Positions 4,810 to 29,061 of a stretch of 37,735 nt of DNA are shown here, piece by piece (the stretch's first letter is position 1; each line of letters starts with the position of its first letter). The translations under genes and the position numbers were made by a program. The stretch covers positions 1 to 37,735 of IMG/VR virus record IMGVR_UViG_3300009068_001395. The stretch is one strand, 5' to 3'. The notes beneath the pieces were generated by a model. That model searched no databases and was not told the DNA's origin. It saw only the letters and a list, made by a program, of their open reading frames with translations. This DNA is from a virus.

Positions 4810-5628
4810 TTAATCTACCAGTACCAATGGCACGTATGCAGGATTCAAACCATTTGCATACACAAAAAATGGGAAGAATCTTTCACCTAAGAAATTAGGA
4901 TAACGCCAAGGAAATGGTTCAGATGTTGTTGGTTCTATTGGATACGTTTTATCGGTATGAGTCCAAATGTATTCCAACAATTCAAAAAATTCACTTACGT
5001 ATTTCTTGAACATCTGTTTACGCATAATATAAGATGTTTCAAAGTTTATCGTGTTACCTTTGAACCAATCAATTTTATTACGATAGTCTGGAAACAGTTC
5101 CATGATTCCTTGAATAAACAAGTTCCAATACTCATAGGGTTGAGATTCAAGATATTGTGATTCAATGTCTTTACCTGATAAAGTGATTGGAAGATTTGTA
5201 ATTAAATCATGTTTCTCAAGCAGTTTTAATGCAGTATCTTTCATTGCTTCTGAGGACAAATAATCCGCAGTTTTTTGATTTGCTTCCATAACAACTTTAG
5301 GTGCTGTTTGTGGCATAGTATCATCAAGTAATAGGTACCGACGATAACTTCCTGCTCCTATATAATCTGCTTTACCATACTTCCACAGATAATATTCAGT
5401 TGCAAGAACACCCATTGCTCTTAGAAACTCAGTCTCGCTAACCCGTGAATAATGATGTGCATACTCATGAATACTCAGTTGTCTTGTGGTATTGATATAC
5501 TCATCATCAGTAGGAGGATGCCAACCATAAGGTGCTTTCTCACCAGCATAGGTTGCTTTTATCCAACTCGATTTGAAGTTGAAAGGAAATGGTTTATGAA
5601 AGTGTAATCCCATTAAAATATCATTCAC
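4810..5628 (-). CDS. DUF4422-type putative glycosyltransferase
   Basis: I place the start at the GTG at 5626-5628, giving 272 aa, because GGAG lies 7 bases upstream and the codon overlaps the stop of the preceding small gene. The longer frame would run through that gene. The segment YLWKYGKADYIGAGSYRRYL (about residues 80-99 from the GTG) matches the signature of DUF4422 proteins, where a tryptophan/lysine-rich helix precedes 'YIG..HYRRY'. The family is found in capsule and LPS glycosyltransferase genes. No clear DxD metal motif was seen. The substrate is unknown: host-like surface glycan, virion protein or DNA are all possible. The region after the stop contains a coding-like remnant. Confidence 0.6.
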   Translation of the reverse strand: MNDILMGLHFHKPFPFNFKSSWIKATYAGEKAPYGWHPPTDDEYINTTRQLSIHEYAHHYSRVSETEFLRAMGVLATEYYLWKYGKADYIGAGSYRRYLLLDDTMPQTAPKVVMEANQKTADYLSSEAMKDTALKLLEKHDLITNLPITLSGKDIESQYLESQPYEYWNLFIQGIMELFPDYRNKIDWFKGNTINFETSYIMRKQMFKKYVSEFFELLEYIWTHTDKTYPIEPTTSEPFPWRYPNFLGERFFPFFVYANGLNPAYVPLVLVD

Positions 5629-5779
5629 TTGGTGTCTCCTTCTTCTTTTTGAATTCGATCTTTGGTGCAATGATTGCTGATATCATGGCATCACGATAGA
5701 TTTTTTTGTGTTCAGGTTCCATATTGGCCAGCATGACCTTCAATGGTTTATTCATTTTAAAATTAGAATTAGGTTTCAT
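5621..5779 (-). CDS. Small protein, 52 aa, translationally coupled
   Basis: This short gene begins at an ATG (5777-5779) that overlaps the stop of the upstream oxygenase gene (TAATG) and ends with a TGA that overlaps the GTG start of the DUF4422 gene. The protein starts MKPNSNFKMNKPLKV and ends with a run of lysines (EFKKKKETPSE). An internal ATG at residue 9 is an alternative start. It is soluble and lysine-rich, with a probable helix at about 20-38 (EPEHKKIYRDAMISAI). No family is recognised. Tight packing at both ends is the main evidence that it is real. Confidence 0.6.
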   Translation of the reverse strand: MKPNSNFKMNKPLKVMLANMEPEHKKIYRDAMISAIIAPKIEFKKKKETPSE

Positions 5780-6342
5780 TACCATGCCCAAGAAACATAT
5801 GAGTACCTAGTGCCTTCAGTCACCAGTTTGACCTCATGTGGATATAAAAAGTTTGAAGGAAATATCATAATCTCACCTGCTTTTAGTTCAACAACTTTAT
5901 CTTTCCAGAATACGAGTTCACCACCTTTATAATCATTATTCAAACAACCAAGAATGCTTAATGTAGGAACACCTTTACGGGCACCATCAAACATGGAATG
6001 AATGTGGTCGCAATGAAGTGCCATCTGTGTATCGGTGCGATAGCGATTGAAACGAACTTCTGAATATCCATTCCAACTTCTGAACCATGGACAATCAACA
6101 TCTGAAATATATTTTTTTAGTGTATCCCAAATCTTTTGCATAATCAAATCTTTTGTTTCAATTTTGGAATATGCTATCGAAAGTTCATGTTCATATGAGT
6201 GGTAACTATTGCTTTGAACATTATAAAATTGATGCGTCTGGAATTCTTTATCTTTTTCTTCCAGAGCATTGACTGATTTGATACATTCTTCTTCAGAAAG
6301 TACCTGATAAACTTTTAGATATGATTCTATATTTCTATCCAT
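5779..6342 (-). CDS. 2OG-Fe(II) oxygenase, prolyl-4-hydroxylase-like
   Basis: This 187-aa oxygenase starts at the ATG at 6340-6342, which has an AGG upstream. A longer frame starts inside a hairpin and is unlikely. Iron ligands are His110 and Asp112 (HCD) and His169 (PHEV), with Arg179 for 2-oxoglutarate; the strand GGELVFW and the GEIMIFPSNFLYPHEV block are classic for the P4Hc (PHD) family. The ending RYSYVSWAW is also typical. Such enzymes are common in T4-like phages of aquatic hosts; targets are usually unproven. It is unrelated in detail to the Asp/Asn-type oxygenase at 561-1106. It is the first of a chain of overlapping genes that ends at the dCMP deaminase. Confidence 0.85.
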   Translation of the reverse strand: MDRNIESYLKVYQVLSEEECIKSVNALEEKDKEFQTHQFYNVQSNSYHSYEHELSIAYSKIETKDLIMQKIWDTLKKYISDVDCPWFRSWNGYSEVRFNRYRTDTQMALHCDHIHSMFDGARKGVPTLSILGCLNNDYKGGELVFWKDKVVELKAGEIMIFPSNFLYPHEVKLVTEGTRYSYVSWAW

Positions 6343-6359
6343 AATATACCTTTTAATAA

Positions 6360-6378
6360 GTGGGGCATTACGCCCCAC
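6360..6378 (-). terminator. Intergenic hairpin after hsp20
   Basis: A perfect 7-bp stem (GTGGGGC / GCCCCAC) with a 5-base loop lies between the heat-shock gene and the oxygenase gene. On the minus strand it is followed by TTATT rather than a long T run. It could be a weak terminator, an mRNA end-protecting structure or a processing site. Confidence 0.45.
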
Positions 6379-11734: not shown

Positions 11735-12928
11735 TTAGAAAGGAACTTCTACCGATGGATCTGGTGTTGGTTCTTCTGCTTGACTGATTGTTTCTGGCGT
11801 TGCACCAGCATCGATTTTTGTGTACAGATCAAGGAAGGTAACTTTCGTATCAGTATCAAAACGATTTAAGCAGAACTGAATCGCTTTCAGTTTGTTACCG
11901 AAGATACCGTAGGTCTTTACGATATGTACCAGACGGCGAGTGGAGATAACCTCATCACAACCACCCTCATCAAAGGTACTACGGATTACTGTAGCCCATG
12001 ATACCAATTTATCGGCAAAATCTTTATCTTCTTTACCGACAGATTCTAATTCTTTGGCAACAATCTTTTTCTCAACTGCTGCTGGTGCCCATTCTTGTTC
12101 AAACGTATTTGGAAAACGTTCAAGGAAGGCTTCGTTCAATACGTTGGTAAACATATAGCGACCATCTTCTGAACCTTTACCTTTAGTATTCGCCGTAGCA
12201 AACACGGTAAAGCCTTCAGCGGGTGTAATTAACTCATTCTTTTTCTTTAGTAAGAATGGTTTGCCTTCGAATACACGTTGGAGGCATGACAGGTTATTTG
12301 AACCGTAGTCAATCTCATCAATACATAACACCGCACCTTGACGGGCTGCTAGAGTAACTGGACCGTCACGCCATTCCATCTGACCGTTGATCAGAACATA
12401 GTTACCAAGCAGATCACCCTCATCGGTATCTGGTGTCATTGATACGCAAACGAATTTACGTTTTGCTTTGGCACAAGCCTGTTCAATGGACATTGTCTTA
12501 CCATTGCCAGATGGACCAGTAACAAAGACAGGAAAGAACTGATTAGATTGTATGATTGACAATACATCATCAAAGTTGCCAAATGGTACATAGTTGCTGT
12601 ACTTAACAGGCACCAAATCTTCCATCTCAAGTTCTGTTACAACATTAGCAATACGATTGCCAGGTTTGACTTGAGGTGCTACCATTGGCAATATCTGAGC
12701 CGCCATTTGGACGGTTGGTGCGGGCGCTGGAGCAACTTTTCCAGAGGCGTTGGGTACACGATACTGACCGCGGCCAATTCGATTGGTTTCATCTTTGTAG
12801 TACCATTGTGGATCAGGAATGCCCAGAGCCTCAGCCATGGTACGCATATCTTCTTTGGTTAGAAAAGGCAGACCTGATGCTGCTGCCGTATCGAGAAACA
12901 ACTGGCGCTTGGCCGGGATGCTTGACAT
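11735..12928 (-). CDS. cobS: CobS-like MoxR-type AAA+ ATPase
   Basis: The ATG at 12926-12928, with AGGAG upstream, gives 397 aa; a longer frame would use a TTG that lies before that ribosome site. The AAA+ core has Walker A GPSGNGKTM (about 135-143), Walker B AVLCIDEID, and the sensor segment FTVFATANT, all typical of CobS/MoxR ATPases. The N-terminal ~60 residues (FLTKEDMRTMAEALGIPDPQ) form the CobS-type small domain, followed by a Pro/Ala linker. CobS with CobT inserts cobalt during aerobic B12 synthesis, and cobS is frequent in aquatic T4-like phages. Its partner here is the VWA protein just upstream. A MoxR-like protein-remodelling role independent of B12 is an equal possibility. Confidence 0.85.
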   Translation of the reverse strand: MSSIPAKRQLFLDTAAASGLPFLTKEDMRTMAEALGIPDPQWYYKDETNRIGRGQYRVPNASGKVAPAPAPTVQMAAQILPMVAPQVKPGNRIANVVTELEMEDLVPVKYSNYVPFGNFDDVLSIIQSNQFFPVFVTGPSGNGKTMSIEQACAKAKRKFVCVSMTPDTDEGDLLGNYVLINGQMEWRDGPVTLAARQGAVLCIDEIDYGSNNLSCLQRVFEGKPFLLKKKNELITPAEGFTVFATANTKGKGSEDGRYMFTNVLNEAFLERFPNTFEQEWAPAAVEKKIVAKELESVGKEDKDFADKLVSWATVIRSTFDEGGCDEVISTRRLVHIVKTYGIFGNKLKAIQFCLNRFDTDTKVTFLDLYTKIDAGATPETISQAEEPTPDPSVEVPF

Positions 12929-12959
12929 AATATAAACTCCTATCAACTATTGAAACTTC

Positions 12960-12988
12960 ATTATAAATGGTATCCGACCATTTGTCAA
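12960..12988 (-). promoter_or_regulatory. Consensus sigma70 promoter for cobS
   Basis: On the minus strand TTGACA (12983-12988), a 17-base spacer and TATAAT (12960-12965), a complete match to the E. coli consensus. The start point would be about 25 bases before the cobS ATG. Confidence 0.85.
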
Positions 12989-13000
12989 GTGGTCAGATAC
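12970..13000. promoter_or_regulatory. Putative operator dyad in the cobS promoter
   Basis: Two 11-base arms (12970-12980 and 12990-13000) match in 10 of 11 positions as an inverted repeat, with 9 bases between. On the minus strand the arms read GTATCTGACCA and TGGTCGGATAC. They bracket the -35 box, so a bound protein would occlude it. The arm sequence differs from the dyad at 11689. Confidence 0.55.
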
Positions 13001-13003
13001 TTA

Positions 13004-15265
13004 TCAAACTGCTATCTGTGTTATGAATCTTGAAACTAACACACGGTTGATCTGGCGGGTCTTATTGAACTTCAAAAATGCTTTGGTAAGTGTTGCCGTT
13101 GTTGCCTTACCGCTTACTTCGAATGTTTCATCCTCAACTGACAGATCAGAACCAGCAGGCAAAATATAGAAAGAATCGTAACCTGTATTTTTTGATTCAA
13201 GGTACTTTTCTTTCTTTAATCGCTTCACATACTTTGCAAGAATTTCATTTGCTTCATGATATTTGTGACGGACTGCATTCAAATCATCAGCAAACATACG
13301 GCGCTTCAATGCTGCCTTTGCACTAGAGACTGGTGTCAGATAGAAACCAACAATTTTAGTGCCAGTTGTTTTCTGCAACCACTCGCATATACCTTCACGA
13401 ACATCATCCTCACTAATTCTCAGATTCACTTGCACTTTGTTTTTCTTATCTACTAGAAAAACATTTTGATTGTTAGAATCAAAATACTTTGCTTTCTCAG
13501 CATTCTGTGCATTATACCAGCATACAGTATCGGCATCACCGTCATGAACGATTGTGGTATTCACAATGTCAAGATTATTAATACGGCGAAACTCTTTGAT
13601 GATTGGTTGCAATGCAATCAATGCCTCGGACATTGGTGTATTCGATAATGAATCACACTGTGGACGCATGAATCTACCACGTGAACCGTGACGGTGTGAC
13701 CATCCATCCATCAAACAAAGAATATTCTTTACTGATTTTGAAAACTCTGAGTTGCTCATTTTAGAATTAATCATCTCACGGAGATAAACTTCTGAGCACC
13801 GCAACTCTTTTTCATTCTCACTAAAGCAACCATTATTGAAACTATCATCTCTCTCATTTGGAAAATCCATGTCACGTATCATACGTGCATTACCAAAACC
13901 GTATGCTGTAAAAGGAATGTTTACTTTACGGCAGAACAATGCAAGGATAAGAATCTGTTCATATGATGCCGACAGATTATTTGCCATCGAACCAGACTTA
14001 TCTAATAACAATACCATACCGTGTGATTTGCCTTTTGGTACTCGCATAATCTTTTTGAAAATGTTATCGTCAATCTGGTACTTGTAAACTTTGTTTACGT
14101 CAATGTCACCAGTCTCGGATACTTTTGCTTTGGCAAACTTGGACGCTGCTTTACGCATTTCAAATTCTTTTGCCAACAATGAAATATAACGTTCATTCTT
14201 TTTACGGAACTCGGTGTACAATTCATTTGCACCACTATTGTATGCTACAGTGCCTGCTTGAGCGGTAAATGCTTCGGTCAACAATTCTTGGACACGTTTA
14301 GCAGGTGTTACAATTCTTTTCAGATTAGGTGTTGGTATATCAATATACACATACTCACGTGCCTTGGCAGCAATCAATGATGATTCATTCTTACGGAAGT
14401 TGTCATCAGTCTCACAAGTTGGTTCAAAGTCCTCATCAGTACCGGCAGATTCTTTGCGGCGATTGATGACATCGGTTAATTCATCATCTTCATCATCGCC
14501 ATCTTCATCATCTTCACCTTCATCACCGCCGCCGTTGCTTTCGGCCTCTTCACCATCTTCATCAAGTTTGGCTTTAGACTTACCATCTTCTTCACCTTCA
14601 CCATCAGTCTCGGTGTCGCCATTGCCGCTACCTGTTTCAGTATCATCACCGTCACCAGATTCGCCAGCACGATAATCATACTCTTCAGGCAATTCGTTTT
14701 GTTGCTGCTCTTCTTTAGAGTAATTCCAAACTTCATTGGTAACACGGAGAACATCATCCCATGTTTCACATTCTTTAACGTTTTCAATCATCACTAATTC
14801 TTCATCAGTGAATCGAATGTCCATTGTATAACCAGACTTGGAAAAAATATTCAGTCTGTCAATGAATGACATTGTATCAACATTACGACCAGACAGACCG
14901 AAAAAATCACGCTTCATTAATTCATCATAACCTTTGATGAATGATGACCGTAGACCTGGATAACGGCGCTTCTGGCGTTTCTCAATACGTGCATCCTCAA
15001 CTACGTTTAAGAACCCTTTATAGTTCTTACCCATAGAGTGGACTGCATCATGCCAACCGTCAGATGGTGTGTCTAAGGCGTGACCAACCTCATGACCCAT
15101 CAGTAGGTCGTACAGGTCGCCTGACATATCTTCCCATATAGGGCAGTATAGTACACGATTTTTTGGATCGAATGCTGCTGTAGAAATTTTCTGGTGTTGG
15201 ATCGTAAGATTCTCAGTAGCCAGCAGTTTGGCTAGACCAGATTTTTGATTTTGAATGTTGCTCAT
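13004..15265 (-). CDS. cobT: CobT-like protein: HExxH metal site plus VWA domain
   Basis: The ATG at 15263-15265 gives 753 aa; upstream in-frame TTG codons are less likely because the GGA ribosome site follows them. Numbering below is from that TTG, five residues longer. The N-terminal part carries a zinc-protease-like HEVGH (63-67) and a downstream VVEDARIE (93-100) that could give a third ligand. Residues ~205-290 are an extremely acidic Asp/Glu/Gly linker. A VWA domain starts near 420 with the MIDAS sequence DKSGS (427-431), followed by a threonine motif (NTPMSEAL). CobT proteins share the acidic linker and the C-terminal VWA domain and act with CobS. It stops 75 bp before the cobS ATG, with a separate promoter between them. 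Confidence 0.8.
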   Translation of the reverse strand: MSNIQNQKSGLAKLLATENLTIQHQKISTAAFDPKNRVLYCPIWEDMSGDLYDLLMGHEVGHALDTPSDGWHDAVHSMGKNYKGFLNVVEDARIEKRQKRRYPGLRSSFIKGYDELMKRDFFGLSGRNVDTMSFIDRLNIFSKSGYTMDIRFTDEELVMIENVKECETWDDVLRVTNEVWNYSKEEQQQNELPEEYDYRAGESGDGDDTETGSGNGDTETDGEGEEDGKSKAKLDEDGEEAESNGGGDEGEDDEDGDDEDDELTDVINRRKESAGTDEDFEPTCETDDNFRKNESSLIAAKAREYVYIDIPTPNLKRIVTPAKRVQELLTEAFTAQAGTVAYNSGANELYTEFRKKNERYISLLAKEFEMRKAASKFAKAKVSETGDIDVNKVYKYQIDDNIFKKIMRVPKGKSHGMVLLLDKSGSMANNLSASYEQILILALFCRKVNIPFTAYGFGNARMIRDMDFPNERDDSFNNGCFSENEKELRCSEVYLREMINSKMSNSEFSKSVKNILCLMDGWSHRHGSRGRFMRPQCDSLSNTPMSEALIALQPIIKEFRRINNLDIVNTTIVHDGDADTVCWYNAQNAEKAKYFDSNNQNVFLVDKKNKVQVNLRISEDDVREGICEWLQKTTGTKIVGFYLTPVSSAKAALKRRMFADDLNAVRHKYHEANEILAKYVKRLKKEKYLESKNTGYDSFYILPAGSDLSVEDETFEVSGKATTATLTKAFLKFNKTRQINRVLVSRFITQIAV

Positions 15266-15280
15266 TTGATATCCAATCAA

Positions 15281-15521: not shown

Positions 15522-16349
15522 TTAAAAGAAACTTTCTAGTGTGTTACCAACTCTTTTCCAATATGTCGGTCTATTATTCCAGCAATTCGTTTCCACTTTC
15601 TCATAGCCATACTGGCGCATCTTATCATTAAACATAGTGCTCATTATCTTACCAGGATAGATTTTATCTTGGTAAACATAATTATTAAAGTGTCCTATTG
15701 CTCTTGAATTAAAAGTATTTGCAATGATAAAGTATTTAGGTTCACAGTTTTGAATCACATCCACCAAATGATCAATAGGATTATAGAAGTGCTCAAAGTA
15801 TTCTGAGGCAAAAACTAAATCTGTTTTCATCTTGTGGTCGGAAATAATTTTAAAGTTATGTTCTTGACCTAACTCAGTTGCCATTTTATACTGAGCACTC
15901 TCTTCTATATTAGTACCATATACATTAGCATTTGGAAATATATCTTTTAGTCCAGCAGTGGTATATCCAAATCCACAACCTAAATCTAATACTGTGTTCA
16001 CATCAACCATGTCCTGCACAATGCTTTTATTAGACATGGACGTGGTTGATTGAATATCTTTTAAATATCTTCTTGAATATTTAGACCAACACATCCATAC
16101 TTCACAGAAATAATATGGACTTGAATAAACAGAATAGTCTGGTACATTTGTGGTTAATGATTCATACCATCTATCTTCCAAGAGTTTCATCTCATACATA
16201 TCTTGGACATCTACGTCAATACCATCATGCGCTTTCATACATGTGAGGGTAGTTCTATATGCCACATCTTGATTAATATCGGCATGCTTGGCACAATTTG
16301 CCAAGTATTTTTTAAGTGCTTCTTTCGTGCCCTCTTCTAAAACATTCAT
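15522..16349 (-). CDS. SAM methyltransferase with clamp-binding C-terminus
   Basis: This 275-aa class I methyltransferase has the SAM-binding motif I VLDLGCGFGYTTAGL (120-134) after a ~115-residue N-terminal helical extension (EVWMCWSKYSRRYL). Motif II would be ANVYGTNIEESAQ, and the motif IV position reads DLVFASEYFEHF. There is no DPPY/NPPY or PC motif, so it is not an ordinary N6A, N4C or C5 DNA methylase. The last six residues, TLESFF, are identical to those at the end of the phage DNA polymerase, which points to sliding-clamp binding. The start overlaps the stop of the TAGT-like glycosyltransferase gene (ATGA). My inference is a base- or sugar-modifying enzyme acting on replicating DNA. 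Confidence 0.8.
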   Translation of the reverse strand: MNVLEEGTKEALKKYLANCAKHADINQDVAYRTTLTCMKAHDGIDVDVQDMYEMKLLEDRWYESLTTNVPDYSVYSSPYYFCEVWMCWSKYSRRYLKDIQSTTSMSNKSIVQDMVDVNTVLDLGCGFGYTTAGLKDIFPNANVYGTNIEESAQYKMATELGQEHNFKIISDHKMKTDLVFASEYFEHFYNPIDHLVDVIQNCEPKYFIIANTFNSRAIGHFNNYVYQDKIYPGKIMSTMFNDKMRQYGYEKVETNCWNNRPTYWKRVGNTLESFF

Positions 16350-17242
16350 GATTTAAAGTCTGTGGCAAATCTCATGCCATAATTGTTGTTACCTTCAGGT
16401 ATCTTAACATCAGGTTTCAAACGAAGTTCATTCTTCTTGAATGATGAATAGTCAACATAGTGATGCCAACGTTTGTATCTCCATACCATTCTTGCCACAT
16501 CTGGATGTAGATCGACCAACATCTGTGATTTGTTTCTGGTGCCCTCAGAGTTTACATTCTCAATCCATTTACCTTCATCAGCACCTTCTTTGTGATAGAA
16601 TTCCTCAGTGTTACCACCCTTAACCGTTTGTGTTGCCGCTTTGCCCTGCAAGAATGCATTGAACTGTATGGTGCAATCACCATCTTTCAATACTTGGAGA
16701 CAGATATCAGTATCTTCATTATACCTACCACGCCACCTATGCTTACACTTATTATCTATCAACAATGTAGAATAGATACGAGTGTTCTTCACATATGGTG
16801 GATATTTACTATTCGGCGCAATAAAAAATCTATACTGAAAGCCAGCGATTGGTACGTTCTCATAACGATCAACAAAATCTTCTGCTGCACGAAAGATGGC
16901 ACCAGACTCCACACGAACACGTTTATTTTTCTGAAGGCGATAGAAGTCTGCAATATTATCATCAAGTACCCAATGTTTCTCAGCACCAATAGATATAGAA
17001 TGATCCCAACACCAATTTCTTGCACGACCAGGACCATCGCCATGATTAGAAAACGGTGCAATCAACAAAGTCACATAAGGCCGAATATTAAATTTGTCTA
17101 ATGCTTTCTCATATAACTCTTCATCTTGTGGTTCGATAGCAATGTAATGAGGCACTTTCATTCTTGCCAACGACCGAGAGGTTAGCATCGACTCTGAACG
17201 ACCTTTAGATATAATATAAACTGGATGCTTAGGATTGGTCAT
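16346..17242 (-). CDS. TAGT-like putative DNA-base glycosyltransferase
   Basis: This 298-aa protein resembles the TET/JBP-associated glycosyltransferase (TAGT, GREB1-related) family predicted to glycosylate hydroxymethylated pyrimidines in DNA. The N-terminus carries PVYIISKGR (8-15 region), a nucleotide-binding GPGRARNWCWDH (70-81), the metal triad position DDN (94-96) and a distal acidic EDTD (176-179) after RWRGRYN. Phage and kinetoplastid relatives act with TET/JBP or other hydroxymethyl-base enzymes, but no TET/JBP gene was seen in this window. It is coupled by overlaps to a 121-aa protein gene before it and a methyltransferase after it. A protein or glycan acceptor remains possible. Confidence 0.65.
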   Translation of the reverse strand: MTNPKHPVYIISKGRSESMLTSRSLARMKVPHYIAIEPQDEELYEKALDKFNIRPYVTLLIAPFSNHGDGPGRARNWCWDHSISIGAEKHWVLDDNIADFYRLQKNKRVRVESGAIFRAAEDFVDRYENVPIAGFQYRFFIAPNSKYPPYVKNTRIYSTLLIDNKCKHRWRGRYNEDTDICLQVLKDGDCTIQFNAFLQGKAATQTVKGGNTEEFYHKEGADEGKWIENVNSEGTRNKSQMLVDLHPDVARMVWRYKRWHHYVDYSSFKKNELRLKPDVKIPEGNNNYGMRFATDFKS

Positions 17243-17594
17243 CTTCTACCCACCTCATCAAAGAATTTGCTTCACGATCCAATGCAGGATGCCAGATTGA
17301 TTTAGTTTTCTCTGTTAGATTTTGGTCAATAATTTTAGCGAACTCTTCATAGTCCTCTTTGGTACGAAAACTTATAATCAATTTTTTAAATGGAGGGTTA
17401 TCTTCATTCTCAAACTCAGGCATACCTTTCCAATGTTTTGTCCACTCAGCATTGTTGGTATCTACACCATCCTCATCCGATTCATCGTTTTCACCAAAAA
17501 ATCTATTCAGTGTTGGAGGTTGTGGTAAATCTACTTTGACACCAATAAGACTCTCATATGTGGTGGTTTCTTGAACATCAGTTTGCTTTATCAT
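17229..17594 (-). CDS. Hypothetical protein with C-terminal TKSIW motif, DNA-modification neighbour
   Basis: This 121-aa protein has a loosely structured acidic N-terminus (PTLNRFFGENDESDEDG) and a compact C-terminal domain beginning KKLIISFRTKEDYEEFAKII, followed by TEKTKSIWHPALD and a final LMRWVED. Similar small domains with 'TKSIW.P' recur in phages next to DNA-modification and ParB-like genes; I know no demonstrated function. It overlaps the deformylase gene by 17 bases and the TAGT-like gene by 14, so the three are tightly coupled. The internal LNRFF resembles a clamp-binding peptide, but this is a weak match. Confidence 0.7.
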   Translation of the reverse strand: MIKQTDVQETTTYESLIGVKVDLPQPPTLNRFFGENDESDEDGVDTNNAEWTKHWKGMPEFENEDNPPFKKLIISFRTKEDYEEFAKIIDQNLTEKTKSIWHPALDREANSLMRWVEDDQS

Positions 17595-18162
17595 TTTTCG
17601 CTTTCCTTACAATCGTCTTAATAGTTTTACTTTGTTTCTTACGTGCCATTTGTAGTGCTACTGGTTTAGCATGACTGGTAAACTTAATTCCATTTAGATG
17701 TTCCAGTTCATGTAAGAAGCATTGAGCACTTACACCTTCAAGTCTACCTTCTTTTACAATGCCATGCTCATCCATATATTCTACATCAATCCACTCTGGT
17801 CTGTCAACATTAAAAAACAATCCAGGAAAAGAAAGGCATCCTTCTTTGTTTTTGGCAATTGTTTCTGATTGCCGAATGACTTTTGGATTTAAACATACCA
17901 TTTGAAACTCATCTGTGCCTATAACAAACATTCTTTCCGATACGCCACATTGATTGGCAGATAGTCCAACACCACCATATAACTTCATGGTCATCTTCAA
18001 TCGTTTTGCCAATGTCACTAATGCTGGTGCAGGAAATCCATCTTTATATTCTGGAATTACCGTAAGCAACATGGGATAATTTTCACCAAACAATGGTAAT
18101 GGATCAAGTCTCTCTGTTGTTTGTATACCTGCTGTGGTATCAATCGTTAATATCTCGCTCAT
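17578..18162 (-). CDS. def: Peptide deformylase
   Basis: The ATG at 18160-18162 overlaps the stop of the upstream small gene (ATGA) and gives 194 aa; an in-frame ATG five codons earlier is less likely. All three deformylase motifs are present: GVGLSANQCG (family GxGLAAxQxG), EGCLS with the metal-binding cysteine (Cys109), and HELEH (His151 and His155; family HExDH). It removes the formyl group from nascent protein N-termini. Phage deformylases are known in cyanophages and other aquatic phages, where they are thought to sustain synthesis of virion or photosystem proteins. Lys/Arg-rich residues fill the C-terminal 30 positions. Confidence 0.95.
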   Translation of the reverse strand: MSEILTIDTTAGIQTTERLDPLPLFGENYPMLLTVIPEYKDGFPAPALVTLAKRLKMTMKLYGGVGLSANQCGVSERMFVIGTDEFQMVCLNPKVIRQSETIAKNKEGCLSFPGLFFNVDRPEWIDVEYMDEHGIVKEGRLEGVSAQCFLHELEHLNGIKFTSHAKPVALQMARKKQSKTIKTIVRKAKNDKAN

Positions 18163-18335
18163 TTTTCTAGTACCCATTCTTCAGCAAAGTTTTCTGCTGC
18201 ATGTAAAGTTAGAAAGTCTGAGGTATATCTTGCACCAAAACTGTCCGTGCAGGTTACAATATAATTTTTTGTCTCTTCGTCCAAAGATACGACCGCTTTA
18301 CGATCTCTATCCATGTGACCACTTATCTCTATCAT
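18159..18335 (-). CDS. Small protein, 58 aa, between gp46 and deformylase
   Basis: The ATG overlaps the gp46 stop (ATGA) and the TGA overlaps the deformylase ATG in the same way, so the gene is fully coupled. The protein (MIEISGHMDRDRKAVVSLDE..., ending EEWVLEK) reads as a beta hairpin followed by a helix (TLHAAENFAEEWVLE). It is acidic, with no known domain. Its overlap at both ends and its even amino-acid composition make it convincing as a gene. Confidence 0.75.
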   Translation of the reverse strand: MIEISGHMDRDRKAVVSLDEETKNYIVTCTDSFGARYTSDFLTLHAAENFAEEWVLEK

Positions 18336-21723: not shown

Positions 21724-22659
21724 TTATACATTACCATAGATGTTGTTCTTAATCATTCTATAACCCGTCAGCAACTCCATAATTCCACTATCTAAATCAT
21801 ACATTGGTTCAAATCCAGTTGCTTCTAACTTAGCATTAGAAACGATGTAGTTTCTTTGATCTGGATCTTTCTTAATCTCCCCTTCAACAATCGAGAAACC
21901 AGGAACATGCTTCTTGATTATCTCACACAATTCTAACTTAGACACATTCGCAGATGAGAGGCCTACATTATATATCTGACCCTTCATTGTATCAAAATTA
22001 TAGATGGCATGAATGAATGCATCACACACATCACGGACATGGATATAATTACGTTTGAAATGTCCCTCAAATATAACAACATAACCATCATTGACTGCAC
22101 GATAGGTCAAATCATTTACTAACAAATCAGTACGCATACGTGGTGACATACCAAACACAGTTGCCAAACGATAACTGATTGAGTTCTCACGTTGCATAAA
22201 CATTTGTTCCACTACCACTTTATCTATGGCATACTTAGATATAGGACTGAGTGGTGACTCTTCAGTGCATAAATTATTCTCATCACCTGAACCATATGCT
22301 GAGTTGGTTGTAGGCATAATGATTCGTTGCTCTTTGGATATTTTATCCAGCATCATAAAGATTGCTTCTTTATTGGTAGTATCAGCACCAACCACATCTT
22401 TGTTACATAGAGGCGCACCAACTAATGCTGCCAATGGAATAATTATATCAGCATCTTTCAGCAATGGTTGGATGTGAGCAAGATTTCTAATGTCGCCATT
22501 GACCACATTGAATCGTGGGTTATGGCACAAATGATTTAAACTTGCCTGCTTGTACATAAAGTTATCAAGTACAGTTACCTTGAATCCTAAGTCTAAAAGA
22601 AATTCTGATAGGATAGAACCAATGTATCCTGCACCACCTGTCACTAAAACATTATTCAT
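21724..22659 (-). CDS. NAD-dependent sugar epimerase/reductase (extended SDR)
   Basis: This 311-aa extended short-chain dehydrogenase has the NAD(P)-binding glycine motif TGGAGYIGS (7-15) and the catalytic Tyr143-xxx-Lys147 (YAIDK), with serine/threonine 118-120 before it. The family includes UDP-glucose 4-epimerases, NDP-sugar dehydratases and reductases. In this cassette it could epimerise or reduce the keto-sugar made by its neighbours (a YerF-like step would be a reduction). It follows the dehydratase gene after one base, with AGGG upstream of the ATG. Confidence 0.88.
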   Translation of the reverse strand: MNNVLVTGGAGYIGSILSEFLLDLGFKVTVLDNFMYKQASLNHLCHNPRFNVVNGDIRNLAHIQPLLKDADIIIPLAALVGAPLCNKDVVGADTTNKEAIFMMLDKISKEQRIIMPTTNSAYGSGDENNLCTEESPLSPISKYAIDKVVVEQMFMQRENSISYRLATVFGMSPRMRTDLLVNDLTYRAVNDGYVVIFEGHFKRNYIHVRDVCDAFIHAIYNFDTMKGQIYNVGLSSANVSKLELCEIIKKHVPGFSIVEGEIKKDPDQRNYIVSNAKLEATGFEPMYDLDSGIMELLTGYRMIKNNIYGNV

Positions 22660-22660
22660 A

Positions 22661-23836
22661 TTATACCCTATTCAATACGTCAGTTATTTCTTTGATTGCA
22701 TTCTTTGATAACGATGGGTAATTACCTATATAAAAACTATAAAAATGCATATGATCTGTGTTAGGATAGTTCTTGTAATGATCTTCAGCAACAATACCTT
22801 TTAGATATGGTTGACGCAGTTGATTACCACCACCAGCAGAACCACGACGGAACTCAATTTCATTATCACGCATTTTACCCATCAATCTTTGTACAAACTC
22901 TTTATTTGCATACTCGGGTTGTAGTACAATGTTAAATGCATAGTTACTGCAACCTGTCAAACGAAAATCGACTTTATACTTTTTACTATCCAACTTGGAC
23001 AGAAACTCTAAGAGATTCTCATTTCTCATTATAACATTATTGTTTAGGTATTTCAACTGGTTTTGTCCAAGTATGCCACCAATTTCTGTATTGCGAACAT
23101 TGTAAGCAGCAAAGGCAAAGATGAATTCTGGATTCAATTCTGGATATACCTTCTGGTAATTCTTAATCATTGGTTCTGAACCACATTCACGTACCATACC
23201 ATGTGACCGAAGCATACGAAGGGTGTGATAAACATTCTCATCATTAGTGCATACCATACCACCTTCAATGGTAGACATGTGGTGAGCAAAGTAGAAAGAG
23301 AAGTTGGACATCCATCCGTAACTACCTAAAAGTTTATTATGATGGGTAGCACCATGTGATTCACACACATCTTCAATCAATGGAATGTTTCTGTTGAGTA
23401 ATTCAGTAACAAGTTTATCTGAGAGACAATCAAAACCTTGTGCGTAGGTAATAAACACAGCACGTGTCTTGTTGGTAATAGCATTGATGATACCATCGGT
23501 GTTCATACCAAGAGTATCTAAATCAATGTCAACAAATACAGGAGTAAAACCACATTGAATGATAGAGGCAATATCAGATACCCATGTGAATGGTGGTACA
23601 ATAACTTCACCACCTTCTGGATGTTTGATCTTGAGCATTGCCATTGACAGCAGATTGGCAGAAGCACCTGAGTTTACAAACACAGAATACTTTACACCTA
23701 ACCATTTAGACCATGCTTCTTCAAAAGCACGACACTCTGGACCATTAGTTAGTTTAGGGTTATCTTTTTTTAGATGTTCGATTACCAAATCTAAATCTTC
23801 TCTGGAAATATTATCACTCATCAATGGATACTTCAT
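22661..23836 (-). CDS. PLP-dependent sugar 3-dehydratase (DegT/ColD-like, His for Lys)
   Basis: This 391-aa protein has the DegT/DnrJ/EryC1 fold, with NSGASAN (55-61) and PLP-contact Asp157 in EDVCESHGA. Where the family carries the PLP-binding lysine, the sequence reads FAHHMSTIEGG, with His185-His186. That replacement defines the ColD and RfbH (E1) dehydratases, which remove the 3-hydroxyl from NDP-4-keto-6-deoxyhexoses. No N-terminal iron-sulfur cysteine cluster is seen, so it is nearer ColD (about 388 aa) than RfbH. It is therefore predicted to make a 3-deoxy-4-keto sugar rather than an aminosugar. AGGAG precedes the ATG. Confidence 0.85.
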   Translation of the reverse strand: MKYPLMSDNISREDLDLVIEHLKKDNPKLTNGPECRAFEEAWSKWLGVKYSVFVNSGASANLLSMAMLKIKHPEGGEVIVPPFTWVSDIASIIQCGFTPVFVDIDLDTLGMNTDGIINAITNKTRAVFITYAQGFDCLSDKLVTELLNRNIPLIEDVCESHGATHHNKLLGSYGWMSNFSFYFAHHMSTIEGGMVCTNDENVYHTLRMLRSHGMVRECGSEPMIKNYQKVYPELNPEFIFAFAAYNVRNTEIGGILGQNQLKYLNNNVIMRNENLLEFLSKLDSKKYKVDFRLTGCSNYAFNIVLQPEYANKEFVQRLMGKMRDNEIEFRRGSAGGGNQLRQPYLKGIVAEDHYKNYPNTDHMHFYSFYIGNYPSLSKNAIKEITDVLNRV

Positions 23837-23851
23837 AACAAACTCCTATAA

Positions 23852-24697
23852 TTATAAATTAAATTTTGCAGGTATATCTTTTTTAAACTTTCCGTTCTGT
23901 ATGTATGTCCACCAGAAACCATCATCTCTATTGACACCTTCTAACCATCGTCCTGGTCTAGCATCTAAATTAAACTCTTCATAGATTGCCAACAATACAC
24001 CAGGATGAAAATCATTAATCATTTTAATCTTATGAGTTAGTCCTATAAGATTTTTAGGTGTACTGAATCTATCAAAATAATCTGAACCTAAAAGTGCAGA
24101 TTCAATATCTGGAAACAAACGAAGAAATTCAAAATTCTCACCTCTATAAAAATCTACATCTTTATGTGTTCTGGCAATATTTAACATTTCTTCTGTAGGA
24201 TTATTTTCATAATCATCACCACAAATTATGCCACAACTTTGTTTTACAATTCGTTTTGCCTGTACAATATCAGATTTGATGTCGGCATAATAATGAGAAC
24301 CATCAATGTAAATAAAATCAAAAGTATTATCTGCAAAATCTTGTAGAACTTTTTTAGAGTCACCACGAATTAAAGTTATATCTAAGTTTCTTTTTTGCTC
24401 ATACTCTTTAACCACTTTGATGGTATTAATATAAGCATCATGAGTCATGTCATCAAATTTTTTATAATCAAAATCTGGATTCTCTAAATCTTTTTCAGAA
24501 CAATATGCTTTCCAAGAATCGATTAACGTGACAGAGGAATCTGGATGTATTTCATCTAACCATATTCTAGTTGAACCTTCACCATACCAAGTTCCAATCT
24601 CTAAAATCTTTAATGGTTTTTTGCTGTGGGTTTTGATTAGATTCCGCATAGGTACTACTCTATGTGGTGCTGCTTGATTTACTGGTGGTTCAATCAT
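23852..24697 (-). CDS. SAM-dependent methyltransferase, cassette member
   Basis: This 281-aa class I methyltransferase has motif I LEIGTWYGEGS (32-42) and FDFIYIDGSHYYADIKSDI, typical of the Methyltransf_24 family found in glycan and natural-product clusters. An N-terminal VNQAAPHR segment is family-variable. It probably O- or C-methylates a sugar or nucleotide sugar made by the cassette. It starts 2 bases after the GHMP kinase stop, with GAGGT before the ATG. It is not closely similar to the methyltransferase at 15522 and lacks the TLESFF tail. Confidence 0.85.
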   Translation of the reverse strand: MIEPPVNQAAPHRVVPMRNLIKTHSKKPLKILEIGTWYGEGSTRIWLDEIHPDSSVTLIDSWKAYCSEKDLENPDFDYKKFDDMTHDAYINTIKVVKEYEQKRNLDITLIRGDSKKVLQDFADNTFDFIYIDGSHYYADIKSDIVQAKRIVKQSCGIICGDDYENNPTEEMLNIARTHKDVDFYRGENFEFLRLFPDIESALLGSDYFDRFSTPKNLIGLTHKIKMINDFHPGVLLAIYEEFNLDARPGRWLEGVNRDDGFWWTYIQNGKFKKDIPAKFNL

Positions 24698-24699
24698 AC

Positions 24700-25689
24700 T
24701 TACCTCATAATAATTTTAGAACCTTCAAAATCAAACTTGAACGGTATCCATATATTGATTTGCTTCAGTCTATCTTTAATCTTTTGATGTGTATCTGGTG
24801 GCGCAAGAAACATAAAGAATCCACCACCACCTGCACCCATCAACTTGCCGCCATATGCTCCTGCTTCTATTGCAGCATCGTATATACTATTTATGTCGCT
24901 GCTGGCCACGCTATCTGTGAGTGTTCGTTTATAGTTCCACTGTTCTTGCAACAGCAGACCTATATCTTTGATTGAAGAATTGGATTCATGTTCAAATATT
25001 CTAAGTGCTTCGTAGGTAAGTTTCTGCATTGCTTCAAGTGTTTGGACAGACTTACCTTCTTTGATAGATTCAACTTGTTTCTTTGCATGAACTTCTGATA
25101 GTCTACTGATACCAGAAAACCCTAGCATGATATGAGATTCTAAATCTTTAACATAACTATCATGTAATTTTAAATCACGAACTTTGATATTGGCACCAGA
25201 TAGTTCAATGACTTTGATGCCACCATATGCTGCCATAATTTGATCTTGGACACCCACAGACTCACCAATAATATTTTGTTCAACATTGATTGCTTCGTTT
25301 GCAAGTTCAAATGCAGTTTTCCTTATACCATTATATGCATATAAAGCATTTAATAATCCAACAGTAAATGAAGAAGATGATCCAATGCCACTGCGAGCAG
25401 GAAGATCACCATCATAAGCAATAGATATACCATCGTCCATCCTTAAATATTGTAGACAAGCACGTACCGATGGATGATTGATTTCTTCCACCGAATTTGT
25501 GTTTTCTATTTTATTATATGTGATTCTATGTTTATATTCAAAAAATGGTGGCATAGATTTTACAGAAACGTAAGAATGGTTTCCCATTGCAGCAGAAATT
25601 ATTTTAGTTTCTCTACTTTGAAACCATGCTGGATAATCTGCACCACCACCAAATAAAGATAATCTATACGGTGTTTTTGATATGAACAT
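24700..25689 (-). CDS. GHMP sugar kinase (HddA-like)
   Basis: The ATG at 25687-25689, one base after the upstream stop, gives 329 aa. The N-terminal KTPYRLSLFGGGADYP is characteristic of D-glycero-D-manno-heptose 7-phosphate kinases (HddA) and related fucose kinases. The GHMP ATP-binding motif is PARSGIGSSSS and the C-terminal motif 3 is LMGAGGGGFF. It phosphorylates a sugar or sugar phosphate at the anomeric carbon, activating it for nucleotide transfer. In this cassette it would supply an activated sugar. No nucleotidyltransferase is seen in the window, so the pathway depends on host enzymes or genes elsewhere. Confidence 0.88.
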   Translation of the reverse strand: MFISKTPYRLSLFGGGADYPAWFQSRETKIISAAMGNHSYVSVKSMPPFFEYKHRITYNKIENTNSVEEINHPSVRACLQYLRMDDGISIAYDGDLPARSGIGSSSSFTVGLLNALYAYNGIRKTAFELANEAINVEQNIIGESVGVQDQIMAAYGGIKVIELSGANIKVRDLKLHDSYVKDLESHIMLGFSGISRLSEVHAKKQVESIKEGKSVQTLEAMQKLTYEALRIFEHESNSSIKDIGLLLQEQWNYKRTLTDSVASSDINSIYDAAIEAGAYGGKLMGAGGGGFFMFLAPPDTHQKIKDRLKQINIWIPFKFDFEGSKIIMR

Positions 25690-25690
25690 C

Positions 25691-27544
25691 TTATTCCGAT
25701 GTTGGAACTGGATTAACAATGTCAGGCATTGCTGGTGTCATCCATCCTTCAATCGGTTCAATGTACATATTCTTTTTAAATTCTTCTCTATCGATATAAG
25801 GGTACATATCTTCAATAGGTGTACTCCATCCAAAGATACGAGGTTCATAGGTATGATACTCATTAATGTCCACATCACACACTACAGGTTCATCTGCGGA
25901 TAGGAGTTCAAAAATTGCATCATCAATCTTTGCTGGATCTTTGAGAGCAATAGTTCGTATACCATATGCCTGAGTTACTTTAATAAAGTCTGGTGGTGCA
26001 TAACCTTTTGGACCACATGCTTCTGCACGACCTTGATAGTTTGTTTCTTGGTATGCTTTAGTAATACCATAGATGTGATTGTTTAAAATAATAGTTTTGA
26101 TCTTGCAACCATAATTTTTAATTGTTTGTAATTCTTGTGGGTTCATATTGAAACCACCATCACCAATGATGCATACGATTGTTTTTTCTGGTGCTGCAAA
26201 CCATGCACCAATTGCGGCAGCAAATGAGAAACCCATTGGAGAATTGCCGTTGTTGGTAATAAAGTGTTGACCTAGTTTAGTTTCAAATGCATGTGATGCA
26301 ATAACAATATTACCACCACAGTCTGCCAACAGAACATCATTTGATTTCATTACCTCTGACAGTCTACGAACGAATCGATATGGATGAATTTCATTCTTAG
26401 ATGTACCAAAGTGTGGTTTTACTGGATCATATTTGTGACGCCATCCTTTTGCTTGATCTAACCATGGTTCATGTTGACGTTTGTATTCAGTCTCTTCCAA
26501 AACTTCTTTGAGTACCTCTAAAAATATTTTAGCATCACAATTTATATTAACATCAAATGGAACTTGTTGCAGTTTGCGTTGAAGTTGTGCTTCATCAACA
26601 TCTACCATTATCTTTTTTGCTCCACGTGCAAACGTATGGATATTACCACCAGTAATACGACCTGATATACGTGAACCAACTGACAATAGTAGATCGCTAT
26701 TCTGGATAGCAAAGTTACGACCAGCACCACCATATGTACCAATACGACCACAGTATGTTTCTAAATCACTTGTAACTGAATCAAGTGCATTCCATGTTGG
26801 AAATGTAGGAATGCCAAGCATCTTAGATACTTCTTGCATTACATCAATTGCACCAGCAATCTTTACACCACCACCAATCATTAAAACTGGACGCTGTGCT
26901 TTTTTAATGTCGATTACAATATCAACTATCTGTTGCTTAACTCTTTGCTTTAAATAAAAAATATCAGGTAGACCAACATCTCTTACAAGATTAGGATTAA
27001 ATCCAAGTTGCTTATCTGGATCGATCATTACTTTTTGAATGTTTAAAGGAATATCTAATAGAACAGGACCCGGACGACCAGACTTGGCAAGATGAATTGC
27101 TTTGTCTACCTCATACCGAATGCTCTCTGGGTCCATAATCATCTTAGCATATTTGGTAATTGGTTTTACAATAGAAACAATATCAGTTTCTTGAAAACCA
27201 ATTTGGCGCAACGACTCATCAGGGCGCAAAAACTTTGAATTGATTTGTCCAGTAATAAAGATGGCAGGAACTGAATCATAGAAGCAGTTACCAATAGGAG
27301 TAACAAAGTTCATACCACCTGGACCACTGGTTGCAATCGCTGCACCAATTTTACCAGATACTTTGGCATAACCTTCAGCAGCAAAACCACCTGCCTGTTC
27401 ATGCATTACGGCAACGTATTCTGTTTTATCTGTACGTGTAAATGCATCAATAAGATCACCGTTAGCAGCACCATAGACAACAAAGATTTTATCAATGCCC
27501 TCGTCTGCTAAACGGTTAATAACATAGTCTGCAAGTTTAATCAT
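25691..27544 (-). CDS. Thiamine-diphosphate carboligase (acetolactate synthase/YerE-like)
   Basis: The ATG at 27542-27544, after AGGAG, gives 617 aa. All ThDP-enzyme parts are present: catalytic Glu49 (HEQAGGFAAEGYAK), GPGGMNFVTPI in the N-terminal domain, a central nucleotide-binding-like domain (RPVLMIGGGVKI) and the ThDP motif GDGGFNMN followed by LNN. It resembles acetolactate synthase large subunits. Next to a ColD-like dehydratase the closest biochemical model is YerE, which adds a two-carbon unit from pyruvate to C4 of a 3,6-dideoxy-4-keto sugar in yersiniose synthesis. A true acetolactate synthase or another carboligase is possible. The start overlaps no gene but follows the radical SAM stop by 2 bases. 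Confidence 0.88.
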   Translation of the reverse strand: MIKLADYVINRLADEGIDKIFVVYGAANGDLIDAFTRTDKTEYVAVMHEQAGGFAAEGYAKVSGKIGAAIATSGPGGMNFVTPIGNCFYDSVPAIFITGQINSKFLRPDESLRQIGFQETDIVSIVKPITKYAKMIMDPESIRYEVDKAIHLAKSGRPGPVLLDIPLNIQKVMIDPDKQLGFNPNLVRDVGLPDIFYLKQRVKQQIVDIVIDIKKAQRPVLMIGGGVKIAGAIDVMQEVSKMLGIPTFPTWNALDSVTSDLETYCGRIGTYGGAGRNFAIQNSDLLLSVGSRISGRITGGNIHTFARGAKKIMVDVDEAQLQRKLQQVPFDVNINCDAKIFLEVLKEVLEETEYKRQHEPWLDQAKGWRHKYDPVKPHFGTSKNEIHPYRFVRRLSEVMKSNDVLLADCGGNIVIASHAFETKLGQHFITNNGNSPMGFSFAAAIGAWFAAPEKTIVCIIGDGGFNMNPQELQTIKNYGCKIKTIILNNHIYGITKAYQETNYQGRAEACGPKGYAPPDFIKVTQAYGIRTIALKDPAKIDDAIFELLSADEPVVCDVDINEYHTYEPRIFGWSTPIEDMYPYIDREEFKKNMYIEPIEGWMTPAMPDIVNPVPTSE

Positions 27545-27546
27545 AA

Positions 27547-29061
27547 TCAATCTCCTAATAACTTTCTTTTTAATTTAATCTCACGGGTTGCATTCAATTC
27601 TTGGAGTGCTTTGTCGCCAAACTTGTCTTTCATTAACTTCTGATAACTTCCGCTTGCATGATACTTGTCCCAAGACATATCACGAAACGCAAGTATCTCT
27701 GCTGCGGTCAAGTATTTATTCGCCAGATTTAACGTATCATAGGAATGCTGACTGTAACCAGAGTATGTATTTGGCAGTTCAATGTTGAGAACCTTTGCTT
27801 GATTGTGCAATGGACTACCAGGATATGCCATAGCAGAATACATATTGGTCATCTCAGTTGGATTGTCCAATGCAAATTGTAATGTTGCTTCCATTGATCG
27901 TTGAGTATCATAAGGCAATCCAAAAATATAGTTACCAGCAATATTAATACCTGCGCCACGAATCATCTGGAACAAATCTAAAATTTTTACATCTTGAAAA
28001 CCATCTTTGTGAATCTCTTTACGCAATTCATTATCTGGATTTTCAATACCAAGACCTAACCACTTAACACCTGCACGATAAAGTTTATCTAAGTATTTTG
28101 GTTTACATGTATCGACACGGGAATATGCCCAGATATTAAAATCATAACCACGTTCAATAATCAAGTCACATATTGCTTCAAAATGCCTAGGGTTTAAAAC
28201 AAATAACTCATCCGCAATCTTAACATTCTTCACACCCTGTGCGGCAATGTGATCAAATTGCTTGATGATAAATTCTGGTGACCACCAACGGAACAGATTA
28301 CTATCTTCCGAAGAAATGTTTGGTCCTTGCTTAGTACGATTAATAATATTGATCATGCAAAACGAACAGCGATATGGACAACCTAAACTGGTATATAATG
28401 CAGCAAATGGTTGCTTCTCTGTGTTGTTTGACCATGAGTGCCAACCTGCTGTGCGGTACTTATCGAGTGATGGTAACAAGTCCCATGCCATACCAGGCAA
28501 ATCAATCTCAAGTCTCTCACGCGGAACAATCTCTGAAGATTCATTGTAAGAAATTTGATTATCTGATGTTCTGAATACAATACCTTTTACATTTCGTAAT
28601 CCAACATCATCAAATTTCTGAATTGAAAGAAGGTCATTAATAGCATACACACCTTCGTTTTGGCAGACCGCATCAATGTACGGTTCTTTTCTGAGAGTCT
28701 CTTCTGGTAAAGCAGCAACATGACCACCTACAAATAATATAAATGTGTTTGGTGATAAGTCGTGGAATTCTTTTGCGGTTGCAGTTGCACCTTCCATGTT
28801 CTGTGAAGATGCAGATGGTTGCTGACCATACACCACAAAGCAAACAATTCTTGCTTTGTATTCGGTAATTCGTTTTGCTGCTGAAGCATAATCTAATTGC
28901 TCTGCTTCAGCATCAAGTATTTCAGGTTTAAATCCTTTAGCACGAACACTATTGGCAAGCATAGCGGCCCAAATAGGAGGTTCAACTGCTGCATTGTTTG
29001 TTGCTAGTCCCTGATAAATCTTTTGTGATGCATTCGGGTGTACAAATAATATATCTACCAT
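27547..29061 (-). CDS. B12-binding-domain radical SAM enzyme
   Basis: This 504-aa class B-type radical SAM protein has an N-terminal cobalamin-binding-like Rossmann domain (about 1-150, MVDILFVHPNAS, then VVYGQQPSASS and FILFVGGHVAALPEE) and the cluster motif CPYRCSFC (Cys228, Cys232, Cys235). Later blocks such as GVKWLGLGIENPD, GAGINIAGNYIFGLP and MAYPGSPLH match the P-methylase/BchE-like group. Members catalyse methylations or rearrangements that often need cobalamin. It opens the sugar cassette in transcription order. The substrate is unknown; C-methylation of a sugar is an inference from context. Confidence 0.9.
   Translation of the reverse strand: MVDILFVHPNASQKIYQGLATNNAAVEPPIWAAMLANSVRAKGFKPEILDAEAEQLDYASAAKRITEYKARIVCFVVYGQQPSASSQNMEGATATAKEFHDLSPNTFILFVGGHVAALPEETLRKEPYIDAVCQNEGVYAINDLLSIQKFDDVGLRNVKGIVFRTSDNQISYNESSEIVPRERLEIDLPGMAWDLLPSLDKYRTAGWHSWSNNTEKQPFAALYTSLGCPYRCSFCMINIINRTKQGPNISSEDSNLFRWWSPEFIIKQFDHIAAQGVKNVKIADELFVLNPRHFEAICDLIIERGYDFNIWAYSRVDTCKPKYLDKLYRAGVKWLGLGIENPDNELRKEIHKDGFQDVKILDLFQMIRGAGINIAGNYIFGLPYDTQRSMEATLQFALDNPTEMTNMYSAMAYPGSPLHNQAKVLNIELPNTYSGYSQHSYDTLNLANKYLTAAEILAFRDMSWDKYHASGSYQKLMKDKFGDKALQELNATREIKLKRKLLGD

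Follow-up and report, generated by a model that had tools for sequence, protein, structure and literature searches.

We conclude that three overlapping genes in a fragment of an aquatic T4-like phage probably encode, at a probability of roughly 0.6, a split two-subunit DNA glycosyltransferase together with a dedicated tailoring methyltransferase, with DNA being the substrate that we infer. The window, meaning the whole stretch of 37,735 nucleotides that was analyzed, was assigned by its gene content to a 37.7-kb piece of a T4-like phage genome. It carries genes for DNA polymerase, the clamp and clamp loader, gp46/47, a late sigma factor, UvsW, UvsY, the major head protein and the portal, with every major gene encoded on the minus strand. 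On that strand, a 121-aa TKSIW-domain protein (17229-17594), which represents a partner domain of TAGT, is followed by a 298-aa TAGT glycosyltransferase (16346-17242) and a 275-aa class I SAM methyltransferase (15522-16349), the latter a predicted sugar-tailoring enzyme. The initial annotation described three coupled genes with overlaps of 4 and 14 bases, and the open reading frames are indeed there: the 121-aa and 298-aa genes share 14 bases, and the 298-aa and 275-aa genes share 4. Because the reading frames are long, their order is kept and identities of 45-96% extend across many contigs, this arrangement is not due to chance.

Immediately upstream, and overlapping the 121-aa gene by 17 bases, is a gene for a 199-aa peptide deformylase (17578-18177, minus strand; PF01327, 2.3e-34), which is likely part of the same transcription unit as the three genes. 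It is kept upstream in most T4-like relatives and is not a recurrent gene in the flanks of cassettes that are not T4-like, and we place it outside the module. Directly downstream of the methyltransferase is a CbbQ/NorQ-type AAA ATPase of 403 aa and a 758-aa protein of a 'peptidase' PHROG (11735-15280, minus strand), a pair that also adjoins the module in many T4-like relatives. Elsewhere on the minus strand, a cluster of six genes (21724-29061) separates the late sigma factor region from that of UvsW and encodes an NAD epimerase, a DegT aminotransferase, a Methyltransf_24 protein, a GHMP kinase, a TPP enzyme and a B12-binding radical SAM protein. Together they resemble a biosynthetic route to an unusual amino or branched sugar. 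We considered this cluster as part of the module and dropped it as unsupported, the aminotransferase not having been found in 12 larger relatives in a search that had no positive control. A further minus-strand gene near the DNA polymerase (4810-5670) has a DUF4422 domain (5e-18), which we take to be a glycosyltransferase-like domain, and it would then be a second such gene in the window.

By its family profile, the 298-aa protein is a GT-A glycosyltransferase of the TAGT family (PF20691). It matched the Pfam model with E=1e-44 and 153.4 bits, against a cut-off of 27.5, with residues 7-210 spanning the whole model, and it matched PHROG 842, 'beta-glucosyl-HMC-alpha-glucosyltransferase', at 3e-47. 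The metal-site motif DDN occupies residues 94-96, and in an alignment of 48 sequences D94 and N96 were invariant and D95 was conserved in at least 90%. An AlphaFold model (pLDDT 84.7) has a GT-A fold that matched solved GT-A structures at a Z of about 14-15 and viral TAGT models in BFVD at TM scores of 0.62-0.83. The best viral neighbors were TAGTs, and the viral neighbors included a T-even-type beta-glucosyl-HMC-alpha-glucosyltransferase from Klebsiella phage PKO111. The initial annotation had called this protein TAGT-like and proposed an HMM comparison, and both the profile and the viral structure models bear it out. Searching the solved PDB chains with the glycosyltransferase profile returned no TAGT; since no TAGT structure has been solved, the good solved-structure matches are all to generic GT-A enzymes, with COLGALT1, SpsA, GalNAc-T and PcManGT near-tied in the top ranks. 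We did not read these four as pointing to a protein or polysaccharide substrate, given their generic fold and near-tied scores.

The glycosyltransferase is unusually conserved. Among relatives selected with the methyltransferase, identity was about 81% for the glycosyltransferase, about 60% for the methyltransferase, about 59% for gp46 and about 45% for the small protein. The TAGT of phage T6, the member of the family known from experiment to act on DNA, scored 37 bits against PF20691 and 23 bits against a diverse TAGT profile built here, and no pairwise alignment between it and the window enzyme was obtained, so the kinship of the two rests on family profiles.

The 121-aa protein matched nothing in Pfam or PHROG, and we found that it represents a recognizable domain with the core W..HW.GMP.F...I.F....F..L..Q.LT.KTKSIW.P, whose profile scored 156 bits on the window protein. 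A homolog of the small protein was found just upstream of the glycosyltransferase in 76 of 80 relatives, and three of the four exceptions have the glycosyltransferase within 330 bases of a contig end. Of 50,697 phage records screened with the core consensus, 22 contained the domain; they are the same 22 that carry a close TAGT, and the domain always directly precedes the TAGT. The two domains form one protein, with TKSIW at the N-terminus, in all seven phages whose reading frames were read (phiAS5, Aeh1, PTm1, POP12, Kuja, 65 and 1.076.O), the hosts of these fusions being isolated phages of Aeromonas, Vibrio, Tenacibaculum and Pectobacterium.

Linkage totals drawn from loci that were fetched with the module's own proteins are biased, and the bias-free measure of linkage comes from searches with a single component: the methyltransferase alone, TKSIW in bacterial contigs and ParB-TKSIW in viral contigs. 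Scanning contigs of bacterial MAGs for TKSIW gave four loci, each with an adjoining TAGT. In three of these, TKSIW forms the C-terminus of a ParB-like protein and the flanks contain phage packaging or structural genes; PF02195 (ParB-like) matched two of the three ParB-TKSIW proteins, one of them above the cut-off. A ParB-TKSIW query alone, lacking TAGT, was then searched against viral contigs, and TAGT was present in all 73 loci analyzed. Terminases are found in the flanks of the ParB-TKSIW-TAGT cassettes, and phage relatives of the ParB-like protein occur under DNA-methylase annotations or beside a PAPS reductase and a methyltransferase. Our literature search, whose scope did not extend to Iyer et al. 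2013, found no account of ParB together with a DNA glycosyltransferase. Based on the fusions, the 22 of 22 phage records and the 73 of 73 ParB-TKSIW loci, TKSIW is a dedicated and obligate partner domain of this TAGT class. The window carries a split form of the TKSIW/TAGT pair that lacks ParB: the 50-aa N-terminus of its small protein is acidic with no match to ParB, a domain that the clade of the window lacks. The earlier description of this protein as one of a kind found near phage DNA-modification genes stands insofar as it lies beside TAGT, and is corrected to a TAGT-specific partner that elsewhere is fused to TAGT or to a ParB-like protein.

We found that the methyltransferase family belongs to the TKSIW-TAGT module. 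The 275-aa protein (METHYLTRANSFERASE) has no relatives among the phage records. Searched alone against viral contigs it returned 20 relatives, each directly downstream of TKSIW-TAGT. With a profile of the family, we also located it in unrelated phages where ParB-TKSIW and TAGT lie on either side of it (loci L143, L177 and L190), and as part of a 585-aa fusion with TAGT that is preceded by ParB-TKSIW (L181, L216-L218). The gene orders TKSIW-TAGT-MT, TKSIW-MT-TAGT and TAGT-TKSIW-MT are all found. Across all loci gathered, which carry the bias described above, 48 of 48 methyltransferase matches were no more than 1.5 kb from a TAGT. On a TAGT tree with 98 rows, 14 bearing the methyltransferase and 84 without it, its presence changes 12 times, and at least 10 of these changes are forced by the starred branches. 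This is a quick tree on which gain and loss are inseparable, and it shows that the methyltransferase was gained or lost beside TAGT at least about ten times.

The initial annotation noted a class I methyltransferase without a standard DNA-methylase motif, and this assessment is confirmed. Only generic class I models in Pfam matched, the best being Methyltransf_23 at 2.5e-7, with no match to a DNA-methylase family. The conserved motif is FASEYFEHF, invariant in the family alignment, and there is no DPPY/NPPY/SPP or PC motif. A structure model (pLDDT 90) had its nearest solved folds among small-molecule and natural-product O-methyltransferases, with near-ties that include the sugar methyltransferases CalS10, KedS8 and TylM1.

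Other genes take up the same neighborhood in other phages. These include a GT-B-like glycosyltransferase (L030), an FkbM methyltransferase (L045) and a second TAGT (L067), with TAGTs in tandem at some loci, as well as a radical SAM-SPASM enzyme, sulfotransferases and an NDP-sugar epimerase, the last at seven loci. Genes for an HNH endonuclease (L038) and, at L059, for a dCMP deaminase are also present in this neighborhood. Most of these genes fit what would be expected of enzymes that elaborate an attached sugar. Phage sulfotransferases lie between ParB-TKSIW and TAGT at L199:1200-1907, L207:2155-2781 and L210:1902-2561 (PF13469 is shown for L199 and L207), a placement suggesting that the sugar attached to this acceptor is sulfated. 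A protein of 351-355 aa, possibly a further glycosyltransferase, is inserted between TKSIW and TAGT at L048:8949-10004, L062:8937-10004 and L071:1003-2067, with no confident family match and one weak match to RXYLT1_C.

The cassette is portable: it occurs in many phages that are unrelated to one another, where its parts may be separate, joined into fusions or arranged in another order. On seven contigs (L020, L040, L048, L049, L054, L062 and L066), TKSIW and TAGT are at about 80% identity outside the T4-like neighborhood of gp46/47 and deformylase, because of which the pair seems to move between phage lineages. A ParB (ynaK)-TAGT pair is also found between trkG and a terminase in Rac-like prophages of E. 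coli (L133:3968-5684), where the TAGT scored 120.6 bits and is annotated as 'hypothetical protein'. The whole locus or part of it is present in 1572 of 5426 complete E. coli genomes, 885 of which have at least 80% of it. In K-12, Rac retains ynaK only up to residue 86; ydaY of K-12 was considered as a remnant of TAGT and rejected, being unrelated to TAGT, with ynaK truncated in that strain.

We then consider how the acceptor would be prepared. PF00303 (thymidylate synthase/hydroxymethylase) had no match in the window, in any of 29 T4-like relatives (19 and 10 records, contigs that may be fragments and that include two of 152 and 162 kb), or in 35 ParB-TKSIW-TAGT contigs, which may likewise be fragments; the same search detected gp42 of both T4 and T6. 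The 152- and 162-kb contigs encode ThyX. PF12851 (TET/JBP) had no match in the window, in 19 T4-like relatives or in 35 other TAGT contigs, in a search without a working positive control, and neither alpha-GT nor beta-GT was matched among the genes scanned in the 37.7-kb fragment. A 2OG-Fe(II) oxygenase distinct from TET/JBP is encoded at 5779-6378 on the minus strand (PF13640, PHROG 61) and is a conceivable hydroxylase candidate. Phages Aeh1 and 65 have neither gp42 nor gp56, and T4 relatives without the gene 42 network are probably without major dCMP modification, since Type II enzymes cut some of them (Petrov 2010, PMC2993671). Because of the 0 of 29 T4-like relatives and the lack of gp42 and gp56 in Aeh1 and 65, a T-even-type precursor is unlikely. 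Thus, of what the initial annotation said about the acceptor, the lack of a hydroxymethylase in the window stands and that of TET/JBP stands as none seen in that uncontrolled search, and the proposal that a hydroxymethyl base comes from elsewhere in the genome is weakened. The route seems to do without every known enzyme that prepares DNA for such sugars. A post-replicative, partial or site-specific mark that uses new acceptor chemistry is the simplest reconciliation with Petrov 2010 (PMC2993671) and PMC8056088.

In the mechanism that we propose, the TKSIW subunit, linked to ParB in other phages, would tether the glycosyltransferase to DNA, either directly or through a partner bound there. Once the phage DNA has been replicated, TAGT would use a nucleotide-sugar as donor and glycosylate bases at some positions, as opposed to full replacement of the base, and the methyltransferase would methylate a hydroxyl or amine of the installed sugar. 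In other phages its place in the neighborhood is taken by a different methyltransferase, an additional glycosyltransferase or a sulfotransferase. The decorated base could protect the phage genome against restriction enzymes, and changes in the tailoring step could allow evasion of modification-dependent nucleases and DNA glycosylases. A methylated base-linked sugar, which the initial annotation had raised, is the best reading because the methyltransferase lacks a DNA-methylase signature, resembles sugar methyltransferases in fold and is tied to TAGT; that the sugar is on DNA is the presumptive part of that idea. We also put forward, as a possible and more tentative generalization, that phages have a widespread form of DNA glycosylation needing neither hydroxymethylase nor TET/JBP, in which a TKSIW/ParB-guided TAGT uses novel acceptor chemistry at sites possibly chosen by ParB, and interchangeable enzymes methylate, sulfate or extend the sugar to give hypermodified bases not described before.

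Other explanations were weighed against a DNA glycosyltransferase with its own tailoring enzyme. The module could decorate something other than DNA, such as RNA, a protein of the virion or a glycan on the host surface, with the methyltransferase, sulfotransferase and second glycosyltransferase elaborating a glycan. Partners of these kinds, FkbM included, are typical of glycan elaboration generally, the solved-structure neighbors of the window enzyme are protein and polysaccharide glycosyltransferases, and a base hydroxylase was not found with PF00303 in the T4-like relatives and ParB-TKSIW-TAGT contigs. However, a ParB-like domain is fused to the partner domain of TAGT, the nearest viral structural matches are TAGTs and not other GT-A enzymes, and a T-even TAGT works on DNA (PMC13216743, PMC13390438). 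We consider a target other than DNA unlikely.

It is also conceivable that TKSIW and TAGT form one system into which the methyltransferase, perhaps one that acts on RNA or protein, was inserted as unrelated cargo. The 84 of 98 tree rows without it would agree with this, as would the HNH and dCMP deaminase genes in the neighborhood of some phages, yet 48 of 48 matches beside TAGT, 20 of 20 in the search with the methyltransferase alone, the TAGT-MT fusion, the permuted orders and the at least about ten gains or losses argue against it, and we find it quite improbable. We give slightly less credence still to a T-even-like pathway, where the rest of the genome would encode a dCMP/dUMP hydroxymethylase and TAGT would glycosylate a hydroxymethyl-pyrimidine made at the nucleotide level. 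The T6 TAGT gene adjoins that of gp42, PTm1 has an extra thymidylate-synthase-family gene and the window is a fragment of only 37.7 kb. Against this stand the 29 T4-like relatives without PF00303 in a search that detects T4 and T6 gp42, ThyX on the 152- and 162-kb contigs, and the lack of gp42 and gp56 in Aeh1 and 65 (PMC2993671). The split glycosyltransferase with a dedicated methyltransferase, acting on DNA, is the reading that we favor. Its weak point is the acceptor, for which no preparing enzyme was found in the contigs searched; also counting against it are the failure of the window enzyme and T6 TAGT to align pairwise, the probable lack of major dCMP modification in T4 relatives without the gene 42 network, the missing ParB domain in this clade and the protein and polysaccharide enzymes among the best solved-structure neighbors.

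Among the pathways of phage DNA glycosylation, the best understood are the hmC route of T-even phages and arabinosylation of the RB69 type, and each begins with an enzyme of the thymidylate-synthase family. If our reading is correct, there is another route to sugar-bearing DNA that is abundant in aquatic phages and has a cousin in E. coli prophages, and a common class of TAGT works with its own targeting partner and with sugar-tailoring enzymes that can be exchanged. It would help to explain 'solitary TAGTs', provide DNA-labeling enzymes and reveal what has to be recognized by type IV restriction enzymes and by defenses based on DNA glycosylases. The interpretation in the initial annotation holds in outline. 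The partner domain, the TAGT-MT fusion and the interchangeable tailoring enzymes are new relative to the initial annotation; sugar on DNA is the central claim that we infer. Isolated relatives with TKSIW-TAGT allow direct testing of whether DNA carries the sugar.

The RB69-type arabinosylation clusters resemble the window in that they belong to T4-like phages and combine glycosyltransferases with sugar-modifying genes. Their sugar is on C5 of cytosine and they use a 5-hydroxy-dCMP synthase of the thymidylate-synthase family (PMC13390438), whereas none was found for the window module. TAGTs of the T2/T6 type (PF20691, PHROG 842) share with the window enzyme the Pfam family, the GT-A fold, the DD metal motif and a T4-like background. 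The T6 TAGT puts a second glucose on alpha-glucosyl-hmC (PMC13216743, PMC13390438). It differs in scoring 37 bits as opposed to 153 and in adjoining gp42, whereas a hydroxymethylase was not found for the window module. Neither a TKSIW partner, nor ParB, nor a methyltransferase of the window family was seen beside the T6 gene. Solitary TAGTs, reported in 288 of 753 genomes bearing glycosyltransferases and proposed as novel transferases in the available part of PMC13216743, are like the window TAGT in having no alpha-GT or beta-GT alongside (for the window, among the genes scanned); that part of the account does not describe a TKSIW/ParB partner or tailoring enzymes. The TAGT of Aeh1 (Aeh1p093) differs from the window in that TKSIW and TAGT are a single 399-aa protein, and no methyltransferase of the window family was found among the phage records. 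It is 53% identical to the window enzyme and has the same TKSIW domain in a T4-like phage without gp42/gp56, and PMC8056088, citing Iyer et al. 2013, lists an Aeh1 glycosyltransferase as presumably DNA-modifying, with the base unknown.
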